NCBI GenBank assembly: GCA_000687975.1
Contig: JIAB01000001.1
Coordinates: 1,488,001 to 1,552,000 of the forward strand
Direction: 5' to 3'
DNA from: Lachnospiraceae bacterium AC2031
Lineage (GTDB): Bacteria > Bacillota > Clostridia > Lachnospirales > Lachnospiraceae
DNA: 64,000 nucleotides
A program made the position numbers and the translations under genes. Below are positions 26,560 through 29,737 of the stretch, in pieces. Within the stretch, counting starts at the first letter, position 1. Every line of letters starts with the position of its first letter. The notes under the pieces were generated by a model that did no database searches, was not told the DNA's origin, and saw nothing but the letters and a program-made list of their open reading frames with translations.

Positions 26560-27699
26560 TTATTTGTCTGCACCGGCTTTGTAGTTATAGATTGGCTTGA
26601 TTATCTTATCGATTTTTACAGTTGGTTCTATAACAGAGGCAATATCATCAATTCCTCGATAGGCGAAGGGACTCTCATCAAGAGTATCCTTATTGATACA
26701 TATAGAGTAGATACCCTCCATAGCCTTCTTGAATTCTGATACAGTATGATGTTCTGCAACCTCAGAACGGCTGTATATTCTTCCAGCGCCGTGTGGTGCA
26801 GAGTAATTCCAGTCAGGATTACCAAGTCCAGTTCCAAGGATTATTCCATCCCTCATATTAATAGGAATGATCACCTTTTCACCTTCTTTAGCACTGATAG
26901 CCCCTTTTCTTAGTATCGGTTTACTACTAACTGAAAAATCAACATAGTTATGAATACTTGTAAAACTGTCTATCACTTTCCATTTCATTCCACTGACAAT
27001 CGTTTCGATCATGGCCTCTCTATTAACCCGAGCAAATTCCTGTATAATCTCGATATCATGAAGGTAGTCCTCCATTAATGCACCAGTAAGACAAGTCATC
27101 TCGTATGGAGCATACCCCTGCTTCTTCATTTGGATCTCTTTTTGTCCAGTTCTAAGGTAGTACTCAGCCACCTCCATCCCCAAATGTCTGCTTCCAGAAT
27201 GAACAACCAGGTATGTATTTCCTTCGTCATCCTTATCCAGTTCAATAAAATGGTTTCCCCCGCCAAGGGTTCCGATGCTGCATCCTGCCTTCCTTGCGTT
27301 AATGTGCCTATAACATCTAAGCTCCGACAGTTCGACTCTGTCAGCATTCTTATGCTCCTTCTTTCGGATCCTTGGACCTACAGGAACATTATCCCTAATT
27401 ACTGTATCCAGCTGTTGAAACTGAAGTGCCTTTGTTTTTACCTTAGCGATAGTCATTCCACAGCCGATATCAACGCCCACCAGACTTGGAAGTATCGAAT
27501 CCCCTATAGTCATGGTAAGACCAATAGTTCCAACCTTTCCAGGATGAACATCTGGCATCACCCTTATGCTGCTTCCTTCTGCACTTGGATGATTTGCAAT
27601 CATCTGAAGTTGCTTCCTTGCATAATCTTCAAGAGCGTAAAGCTCATTTTCTACCGTATAAACGATAGCATTTGTATACTTTCCGTATATTGTAATCAT
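26560..27699 (-). CDS. rtcB: RtcB-family RNA ligase
   Basis: A 379-residue GTP- and Mn-dependent ligase that joins 2',3'-cyclic phosphate (or 3'-phosphate) ends to 5'-OH RNA, used for repair of cleaved tRNA or rRNA. Family residues are present: VGVDIGCGM with the metal-binding Cys, GGGNHFIE, HSGSRHLG, and the C-terminal APHGAGR whose His would be guanylylated. It is slightly shorter than the about 400-residue enzymes but lacks no motif. AAGGATT precedes the ATG. A small Cys-rich protein gene lies 31 bases upstream in the same transcript, and the two sit behind an attenuator-like leader. Confidence 0.95.
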   Translation of the reverse strand: MITIYGKYTNAIVYTVENELYALEDYARKQLQMIANHPSAEGSSIRVMPDVHPGKVGTIGLTMTIGDSILPSLVGVDIGCGMTIAKVKTKALQFQQLDTVIRDNVPVGPRIRKKEHKNADRVELSELRCYRHINARKAGCSIGTLGGGNHFIELDKDDEGNTYLVVHSGSRHLGMEVAEYYLRTGQKEIQMKKQGYAPYEMTCLTGALMEDYLHDIEIIQEFARVNREAMIETIVSGMKWKVIDSFTSIHNYVDFSVSSKPILRKGAISAKEGEKVIIPINMRDGIILGTGLGNPDWNYSAPHGAGRIYSRSEVAEHHTVSEFKKAMEGIYSICINKDTLDESPFAYRGIDDIASVIEPTVKIDKIIKPIYNYKAGADK

Positions 27700-27730: not shown

Positions 27731-27937
27731 TTATTCAAACTTTTCTTTCTTCCACTGATCATGCCTATCCTTGTCCTTCTGTCTTTTCTCTCGTATAGAC
27801 TCTCTTTTTTCTGAACTCTTTCTTGGTCTATACTTAGGACAATTCTTGCATTTCTTTAAATCAACTTTTACAAATCCCTTTTTACAATCCGCATCCTTAC
27901 ATACATAGTAGATGCATGGTTCTAATCTATCTTTCAT
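27731..27937 (-). CDS. Small Cys-rich, basic protein encoded with rtcB
   Basis: A 68-residue protein. The first half has six Cys (CIYYVCKDADCKKG and KKCKNCPKY), an arrangement able to bind one zinc ion or more. The second half is a highly charged helix (KRESIREKRQKDKDRHDQWKK), as in RNA-binding small proteins. AGGAG lies seven bases before the ATG. It is the first protein after the leader terminator and 31 bases before rtcB. I do not recognise a named family. Its place suggests help with RNA binding or delivery to RtcB, which is inference. Confidence 0.8.
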   Translation of the reverse strand: MKDRLEPCIYYVCKDADCKKGFVKVDLKKCKNCPKYRPRKSSEKRESIREKRQKDKDRHDQWKKEKFE

Positions 27938-27962
27938 TTCTATCTCCTAATTTATTACATAA

Positions 27963-28010
27963 GAAAAACACCCCTTGGTATAGTCTTTACGCCATACCAA
28001 AAGAGGTGTT
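27963..28010 (-). terminator. Intrinsic terminator/attenuator between leader ORF and rtcB operon
   Basis: On the minus strand AACACCTCTTTTGGTAT (28010 down to 27994) pairs with ATACCAAGGGGTGTT (27981 down to 27967) around a 12-base loop, with two bulged bases. TTTTTCTT follows. The 25 bases between it and the next gene hold only that gene's ribosome binding site and no promoter, so expression of the operon needs read-through. The stem's 5' arm could pair instead with AGGGGT inside the leader ORF. Confidence 0.82.
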
Positions 28011-28039
28011 AGTTATCCTTAGTTAGTATTTAATTACTA

Positions 28040-28117
28040 CTATCTACCCCTAGACTCTCCAAGGACAACTAATGCCTCAATGTTTACTATTCTGTTGTTT
28101 CGATTAATTGCAAGCAT
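28040..28117 (-). CDS. 25-codon leader ORF upstream of the rtcB operon
   Basis: A tiny ORF with a near-perfect ribosome binding site (AAAGGAGG, five bases before ATG 28117). The peptide begins MLAINRNNRI and ends GESRGR before a TAG. It has five Arg (codons CGA, AGA, AGG, AGA among them) and four Asn, no membrane segment and no signal sequence. It stands between a consensus promoter and the terminator at 27963, the layout of a cis-acting leader peptide. Part of its 3' half can pair with bases beside and within the terminator arm. Stalling or slow reading could thus switch termination. I do not recognise the peptide. Confidence 0.72.
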   Translation of the reverse strand: MLAINRNNRIVNIEALVVLGESRGR

Positions 28118-28196
28118 AGTGTCCTCCTTTCGTCTCTATGTCAATCTGTTACTAAATCTTTAAAATCCGCGGAGCCTCGTGCTGCTCCAAGTCCGT

Positions 28197-28240
28197 AGTA
28201 TATCACGAATATAATGAATGTCAATTATACCAACGGTATA
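28197..28240 (-). promoter_or_regulatory. Consensus promoter with palindromic operator for the rtcB leader
   Basis: On the minus strand TTGACA (28224-28219), a 16-base spacer and TATACT (28202-28197) form a near-consensus sigma-A promoter. Directly upstream of the -35, TATACC-n3-GGTATA (28226-28240) is a perfect 6-3-6 inverted repeat that could bind a regulator. Transcription would begin near 28190, giving about 73 bases of 5' UTR before the leader ORF, including a GGAGC/GCTCC hairpin. Confidence 0.78.
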
Positions 28241-28864: not shown

Positions 28865-29737
28865 ATGGAAGAACAAAGAAAAGCTGTACGAGAAATGCAG
28901 GATTATATAAGTGAACATATCAGCGAAGATATCACCATAAGTGATCTTGCGAAACACGTATCCTTTTCACCGTGGTATGTCAGGAAACTTTTCCTGAAGC
29001 ATGTGGGTATGACACCAGCAGTTTATATCAGGCGCCTTAAGCTGTCCAAGTCAGCCCTGAGACTTCGAGATGAAAGCTGTCAGGTTTTAGACATCGCCAT
29101 GGATATGGGATTTGGAAGTGTTGACGGATATCAGCGAGCATTCAGACGTGAGTTCGGCTGTAATCCTAAAGAATACTCAACCAGCCCGGTACCGATCTGG
29201 CTTTTTACTCCTACACTAATAATAGATAAAGAAAGGAATCAAAACGATATGAGCGAGATAAGAAATGTATTTATTCAAGTAATTGAGAAGCCAGCAAGAA
29301 AGGTTATCATCAAGAGAGGCGTGAATGCAAAGGAGTACTTCAGTTACTGCGACGAGGTTGGATGTGATGTGTGGGGACTCCTCACAAGCATTAAGTCTAT
29401 AAGCGGAGAGCCTGTATGTATGTGGCTTCCTGAGCACCTTAGAAAACCAGTGACAAATGAATATGTCCAGGGTGTTGAAGTAGAAGCAGACTACGATGGT
29501 CCTATCCCTGAAGGTTTTGAGATCATTGATCTTCCAGCATCAACTTTCCTTCTTTTTAGAGGAGAGCCATTTGCTGAAGAAAACTATGTAGCTGCCATCA
29601 CTGAAATCTGGGATGCTGAAAAGAAGTATAATCCTGACTTCATTGGATATGAATGGGATGACAAAAATCCTAGAATCCAGCTTGAGCCTGTTGGTGATAG
29701 AGGATATATTGAACTTGTTCCTGTAAAGAAAAAGTAA
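28865..29737 (+). CDS. AraC-family regulator with GyrI-like effector-binding domain
   Basis: A 290-residue regulator. Two helix-turn-helix motifs of the AraC/XylS type occupy residues 1-110 (ISDLAKHVSFSPWYVRKLFLKHVG and VLDIAMDMGFGSVDGYQRAFRREFG). Residues about 130-290 form a GyrI/Rob-like domain that in relatives binds small hydrophobic drugs (GVEVEADYDGPIPEGFEIIDLPASTFLLFRG region). GGGAGG lies about eight bases before the ATG. It is transcribed alone and divergently from GNAT, with a terminator at 29778. Targets are unknown. Confidence 0.92.
   Translation: MEEQRKAVREMQDYISEHISEDITISDLAKHVSFSPWYVRKLFLKHVGMTPAVYIRRLKLSKSALRLRDESCQVLDIAMDMGFGSVDGYQRAFRREFGCNPKEYSTSPVPIWLFTPTLIIDKERNQNDMSEIRNVFIQVIEKPARKVIIKRGVNAKEYFSYCDEVGCDVWGLLTSIKSISGEPVCMWLPEHLRKPVTNEYVQGVEVEADYDGPIPEGFEIIDLPASTFLLFRGEPFAEENYVAAITEIWDAEKKYNPDFIGYEWDDKNPRIQLEPVGDRGYIELVPVKKK

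Follow-up and report, generated by a model that had tools for sequence, protein, structure and literature searches.

The RNA ligase gene rtcB in the window, i.e., the whole stretch of 64,000 nt of DNA analyzed here, is preceded by a leader that is very likely to be a ribosome-mediated (trp-type) transcription attenuator. As far as can be judged from sequence, passage of RNA polymerase into rtcB probably requires stalled ribosomes. Comparative analysis indicates that it is a conserved RNA switch with a tiny gene of its own, located upstream of rtcB in many rumen and gut Lachnospiraceae; its elements and their order, the mutually exclusive co-varying pairings and the link to rtcB are demonstrated by the comparisons of leaders described below.

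The rtcB leader and its genomic context

Analysis of the sequence and open reading frames of the window places all leader elements and the downstream genes on the minus strand. With a GNAT acetyltransferase gene on the side away from rtcB, the order is promoter, 5' hairpin, strong SD, 25-codon upstream open reading frame (uORF), intrinsic terminator, Cys-rich gene and rtcB. The features are as follows.

28197..28224, minus strand: promoter TTGACA-16-TATACT with a TGn extension, 11/12 consensus bases (motif scan)
28171..28188, minus strand: 5' hairpin GGAGC-AGCACGAG-GCUCC, with the conserved loop GCACGA and a co-varying stem (alignments A1 and A3; arm permutation)
28148..28152, minus strand: conserved GUAAC (16/16 rows of A1)
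28118..28130, minus strand: S1, the SD region of the uORF, AAAGGAGGACACU, able to pair with S2
28040..28117, minus strand: uORF of 25 codons plus TAG, MLAINRNNRIVNIEALVVLGESRGR (reading frame; uORFs of relatives)
28094..28099, minus strand: putative sensor codons Asn7-Asn8 (AAC AAC), at -7/-6 relative to S2 (codon statistics)
28088..28090, minus strand: putative sensor codon Ile10 (AUA) (codon statistics)
28059..28078, minus strand: S2, GAGGCAUUAGUUGUCCUUGG, 5' strand of the antiterminator, within the uORF (folding, duplex energies, permutation)
28003..28022, minus strand: S3, CUAAGGAUAACUAACACCUC, 3' strand of the antiterminator, overlapping the terminator 5' arm (folding, duplex energies, permutation)
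27961..28010, minus strand: intrinsic terminator, hairpin 28010-27967 followed by a U-rich tract to 27961 (motif scan, relatives, arm permutation)
27731..27937, minus strand: gene for a Cys-rich basic protein of 68 aa (open reading frame; Pfam/NCBIfam search negative)
26560..27699, minus strand: rtcB, RNA ligase, 379 aa (PF01139, E 1.5e-55)

All the elements named in the first-pass annotation (promoter, SD, 25-codon ORF, terminator with U-tract, Cys-rich ORF and rtcB) are present on this strand, and its description of the promoter as near-consensus is borne out: the -35 element TTGACA (28224-28219) is separated by a 16-nt spacer from a TG-extended TATACT ending at 28197. A promoter-like sequence was found in the same place in 46 of the 54 leaders tested, using a lenient pattern. 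The uORF SD, AAAGGAGGAC, spans 28130-28121 (minus strand). The promoter and terminator motifs alone prove little because their counts in 5 kb, 15 promoter-like sites versus 13.3 expected and four terminator-like sites versus 2.8 expected, are close to those of shuffled sequence and not above chance. What is above chance at this locus is conservation in relatives and the fold of the 253-nt leader, which is unusually stable (z -4.68; none of 200 shuffles as stable). It had also been claimed that the operon needs read-through, and we agree because the approximately 25 bases from the U-tract to the next start codon leave no room for a promoter. The palindrome next to the -35, proposed as a second input, is indeed perfect and is the only match in the window (0.10 expected, at most one mismatch); however, it is not conserved, and in 240 loci it was seen only in the same genome, in a 99% identical neighbor and once (L109) far from the leader, so that we rejected it as an input. 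Control by RtcR/sigma-54 is not suggested by the promoter, which is of the sigma-70 type, or by the immediate neighbors, the next upstream genes being those of the GNAT and AraC-type proteins. The divergent AraC-type regulator (28865-29737, plus strand) shows a weak match to a Cass2 effector-binding domain, below the Pfam cut-off.

Of 78 named loci, 36 have the Cys-rich gene interposed between leader and rtcB. Its product has a basic tail and five Cys residues that do not vary across an alignment of 20 relatives, and matches no Pfam or NCBIfam family; the AlphaFold model (mean pLDDT 52) is too poor for a structure search. It is possibly a partner of RtcB or an RNA-binding partner.

Distribution of the leader and co-variation of its pairings

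When 61 genomes of the genus were searched at the nucleotide level, 24 yielded matches; at the matched loci the leader precedes the Cys-rich gene and rtcB, or rtcB directly, except for three matches with no rtcB nearby, two of which (L033, L042) look like chance; the third is L038, described below. The covariance model R1, built from an alignment of 16 genus leaders (A1), matches 27 of the 61 genomes at E 0.01, including one chance match (G067) and one genome that has S3 and the terminator only (G022). According to a protein search, this rtcB is present in 30 of the 61 genomes. The leader stands before rtcB in 25 of these 30 (divergent in G019, with a displaced terminator in G030), and a different leader of like design in two (G002, G009); in the other three it is truncated (G022), cut by the contig end (G005) or was not found (G061). 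One genome that already has a leader (G015) carries a second copy (L038, contig C120, 1447-1760); behind it, MKDRLE and then a stop codon are what remains of the Cys-rich gene, and the flanking sequence retrieved contains no rtcB.

The 78 named loci came from an RtcB-alignment scan and have titles of Lachnospiraceae or broader groups (Clostridia, Eubacteriales), Eubacterium ruminantium ATCC 17233, which has the leader (L094), and FB3002 among them. At E 2.7e-6 or better, R1 has a match in 60 of the 78, located ahead of rtcB and sharing its strand; one locus is cut by the contig end (L083), and another keeps S3 and the terminator only (L085). In an automatic parse, with the terminator positions of L112, L121 and L139 set by hand, the hairpin, uORF and terminator occur together in 59 of 79 sequences (the 78 loci and the window), of which 55 are distinct. 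Among 392 sampled genomes of the order, 104 contain rtcB at E 1e-40, and here R1 detected only the leader of the same genome and two weak matches with no rtcB in the fetched flanks. The sequence-only model R2 has matches in 73 of the 392 genomes at E 0.01; among the rtcB matches listed, an R2 match immediately precedes only those in the same genome, G443, G306 and G274, and the remaining R2 matches look like chance. Reading by eye upstream of 29 of the 104 rtcB loci, we saw a uORF of similar design in the 11 closest (L183-L193) and no such uORF in the other 18, although for several of these the start codon had been placed wrongly.

Several leaders depart from the common layout. L082 (1874-2250) has approximately 130 additional nt separating the 5' hairpin from the uORF; the remaining elements are kept. 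The terminator is displaced in L068 and L077; in L068 (genome G030, 300-1190), an insert after S2 shifts it approximately 300 nt downstream, and the candidate S3, GGGACAAC, is still able to pair with the S2 sequence GUUGUCC. A different leader, lacking the GCACGA hairpin, is located upstream of rtcB in L095, L105 and L147 (also L231 and L237). It carries AGGAGGACA, a uORF such as MLGTMVLENGKMNSTYAKGGLV, and GGGUG within the uORF, which in L095 and L105 matches a CACCC...GGGUG terminator, while the terminator of L147 is GAGCACC...GGUGCUC-like; by eye, the logic is the same in other letters. The second, more distant RtcB of the same genome (413 aa; L241, 280-1521, minus strand) has no such leader by eye.

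The 3' part of the uORF contains S2, which pairs with S3; the last letters of S3 are the terminator 5' arm. In the window, the antiterminator joins GAGG-CA-UUAGUUGUCCUUGG with CUAAGGAUAACUAA-CA-CCUC. The GTTGTCCTT:AAGGATAAC pairing proposed previously is right, whereas the proposed AGGGGT:ACCTCT pairing does not hold: its letters lack conservation, and forming it alongside the better helix would require a pseudoknot; the terminator CCTC pairs with GAGG at 28078-28075, not with AGGGGT. Over 55 distinct leaders (L108, with a misplaced S3, included), the mean energy of the S2:S3 duplex is -20.3 kcal/mol, compared to -15.5 when the strands are swapped between loci and -9.4 when S2 is shuffled. In a permutation test with 26 representatives (L108 and L112 excluded), the native S2:S3 value was -19.7 versus -14.6 kcal/mol for permuted pairs, and none of 1000 permutations reached the native pairing for S2:S3, the terminator arms, the 5' hairpin arms or S1:S2, counts which are not exact probabilities because related leaders among the representatives are not fully independent.

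The letters of the terminator-capturing helix differ between groups (GAGG/CCUC, AAGGUGU/ACACCUU, GGGUGU/ACACCC, AAGGAUG/CAUCCUU, GGGGCU/AGCCCC), with S2 and S3 changing together and the terminator 3' arm changing along. Compensatory changes in a conserved leader, which the first-pass annotation had offered as a check, are thus present across groups of Lachnospiraceae but not within the genus, where no double change in S2:S3 was found and column shuffles were not beaten; the helix there is 93.7% paired, versus 32-62% in slid registers. The annotation's interpretation as an antiterminator/terminator attenuator is supported by conservation and by the co-variation across groups. It mentioned neither the uORF SD as a third pairing partner nor the conserved 5' hairpin with the loop GCACGA. 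For S1:S2, the gain is small (-11.95 versus -11.01 permuted, i.e., less than 1 kcal/mol), with the native pairing better than the median swap in 17/26 representatives; this pairing was also chosen by RNAalifold. The loop GCACGA and GUAAC are among the most conserved letters of the leader; in seven tests, no co-varying partner was found for the loop, the GUAAC region or the Asn-x-AUA segment (native pairing reached by 246-827 of 1000 permutations).

The leader peptide was expected to be conserved. The uORF is indeed kept; its 3' part, S2, is on the comparative evidence kept as RNA and not as peptide because some clades read it in another frame. L098, L101 and L103 read S2 in another frame, the uORF of L135 is frame-shifted at S2 relative to its near relative L136, and that of L141 stops before S2 with the pairing retained.

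Proposed switching scheme, candidate sensor codons and rival explanations

Under the attenuator scheme, RNA polymerase would start near 28190 and transcribe the uORF. An undelayed leading ribosome would sit on S2 as S3 emerges, and CACCUC of S3 would join the terminator (off). With a ribosome stalled in the first dozen codons, S2 would be free to pair with S3 and remove the terminator 5' arm, and the polymerase would then enter the Cys-rich gene and rtcB (on). In the absence of uORF translation, S1 could pair with S2, which should again favor the terminator. Natural stalling could arise, e.g., from cleavage of the matching tRNAs, perhaps through loss of tRNA-Asn or of the AUA-reading tRNA-Ile. 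We infer this assignment of on and off states, the need for uORF translation, and stalling at Asn/AUA just upstream of S2 as the signal. The 5' hairpin and GUAAC are given no part in this scheme, which counts against it.

For the window leader, folding with a masked ribosome supports the switch. A ribosome stalled at the -7 codon gives 0.66 for the antiterminator pairing (T5:S2) and 0.11 for the terminator pairing (T5:T3), compared to 0.93 for T5:T3 when the leader is free or the ribosome is at the stop; a ribosome at the stop of this uORF covers only the end of S2. At equilibrium with a stalled ribosome, T5:T3 exceeded 0.5 in 35 of 50 leaders (L108, L112, L121, L139 and L141 excluded) and T5:S2 in 5 of 50. 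When the transcript was cut before the terminator 3' arm, T5:S2 exceeded 0.5 in 33 of the 50 with a stalled ribosome, in 23 without a ribosome and in 12 when it was placed at the stop. The switch would therefore have to be kinetic, with the antiterminator forming first during transcription, because the terminator mostly wins at equilibrium.

Asn accounts for 97 of the 504 codons at positions 2-13 of 42 non-redundant uORFs, while 2000 shuffles of letters within leader and codon position gave 54.5 on average and never more than 73, whereas Lys is depleted (26 seen versus 58 expected). The long ORFs of the window contain 4.8% Asn, and the starts of 25 ordinary window ORFs (300 codons) contain 8.0% Asn and 10.0% Lys. 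The distance profile covers 27 of the 42 representatives; the other 15 had no automatic S3, hairpin or terminator, were loci outside the parse, or, for L108, had a misplaced S3. Asn peaks at -6 or -7 before S2 (22/27 representatives, 48/54 unique leaders), and Ile at -4/-5 is encoded by AUA in 18/21 cases, versus 3/28 elsewhere before S2 (Fisher 1.4e-7). Since AAC and AAU are used equally at -6/-7 (15 and 14 codons), the amino acid or its tRNA is likely to be what is kept. Five leaders (L093, L112, L116, L131, L135) have no Asn at -6/-7, L186 and L188 have a single Asn nearer S2 (hand count), and in one clade AUG or another codon replaces AUA. Sensing of all NAY codons was rejected because the 4-fold enrichment of Asn is not shared by His (1.7), Tyr (0.6) or Asp (0.06). 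The ribosome footprint extends approximately 16 nt downstream of the P site, and in trpL the Trp codons are similarly far from segment 2; by this measure, a ribosome stalled much beyond the Asn and AUA positions would no longer leave S2 free.

Within the attenuator explanation, two signals have to be weighed. One possibility, which we advance only tentatively, is a tRNA-damage sensor: anticodon-nuclease cuts to tRNA-Asn or the AUA-reading tRNA-Ile would starve ribosomes at Asn and AUA codons and turn on the ligase, which would reseal these tRNAs. The equal use of AAC and AAU, the near-exclusive use of AUA for Ile and the absence of a co-varying partner of the segment are signs of this. Alternatively, and quite possibly, although short of probable, the same attenuator responds to translation stress in general, any slow early elongation (e.g., under ribosome-targeting antibiotics) turning on rtcB, and the Asn/AUA codons only keep the region slow or unstructured; this is a variant of the attenuator explanation, and the likelihoods of the two overlap. 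E. coli rtcBA is induced by tetracycline and translation-challenging agents (PMC12606134), and the E. coli toiL uORF senses several classes of antibiotics (PMC12121999), which is in favor of a general sensor. However, Lys codons are equally A-rich, yet Asn is enriched and Lys is depleted, and AUA is favored for Ile at -4/-5 only.

The remaining explanations assign the uORF or the leader a different role. In erm-type leaders, the nascent peptide arrests the ribosome together with a drug, and a conserved N-x-I peptide could similarly stall the ribosome with a drug or metabolite. The uORF peptides are similar across loci, as would be expected in that case, but AUU and AUC should then serve for Ile as well, whereas AUA is nearly fixed; furthermore, the residue between Asn and Ile varies, and the L183-L193 leaders share little beyond Asn, which makes peptide arrest improbable. 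Somewhat less improbable, although still unlikely, is that termination is decided by a protein or ligand bound to the 5' hairpin (loop GCACGA, then GUAAC), with the uORF being secondary. The high conservation of the loop and GUAAC, the co-varying stem and the lack of a co-varying RNA partner of the loop are consistent with this reading; conversely, L095, L105 and L147 lack the hairpin and, by eye, keep the uORF, the terminator-arm mimic and the terminator, and 371 nt around the leader of one relative (L027) have no Rfam match at E 1. A riboswitch or T-box was rejected for lack of an Rfam match around that leader or in the window, where the only hits at gathering scores are three tRNAs. LoaP, a hairpin-binding antiterminator, recognizes a UNCG hairpin (PMC12691694), whereas the loop here is GCACGA, and a LoaP site was rejected as well. 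Finally, there might be no regulation, only a leftover terminator with constant read-through. rtcB can exist without the leader, as in G022, where only S3 and the terminator are left, and in G061, where none was detected; nevertheless, the co-variation across groups and the promoter-like sequence in most leaders make the lack of regulation very improbable.

Comparison with known systems

Leaders of the trp/his type are ribosome-mediated transcription attenuators. The rtcB leader resembles them (e.g., E. coli trpL) in having a uORF, alternative pairings that end in a terminator, and candidate sensor codons a few codons before segment 2. It differs from them in that an RNA ligase gene and not a biosynthesis gene is located downstream, that the first pairing uses the SD of the uORF itself, that a 5' hairpin is conserved, and that Asn and AUA codons are the sensor candidates.

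Antibiotic-responsive leaders of Firmicutes, those of vmlR (PMC9226507) and hflXr (PMC6310831), are similar in placing attenuation before a translation-protecting gene; here, by comparison, there is no known drug-dependent arrest motif, and the gene encodes an RNA-repair ligase. The toiL-topAI uORF of E. coli likewise reports translation stress, but it acts on topAI translation and Rho termination (PMC12121999), whereas the leader described here has an intrinsic terminator. In Salmonella and E. coli, rtcBA is controlled by RtcR, which binds tRNA halves with a cyclic phosphate (PMC7790460). Induction of rtcB by tRNA damage or translation stress would be common to both systems (PMC7790460, PMC12606134); in the RtcR/sigma-54 system a protein senses the tRNA halves, whereas here the position of the ribosome on the leader would be the sensor. 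If the leader is a tRNA-damage sensor, damage would be sensed via the missing function of the substrate, and not via broken ends as with RtcR. The open-licence papers returned by a literature search contain, in their available text, no earlier description of this leader and do not cover rtcB control outside the bacteria with RtcR control. Coupling of RNA repair to ribosome stalling by such a leader would be a simple answer in many Lachnospiraceae of the rumen and gut, and the sensor codons would indicate which tRNAs come under attack in nature.
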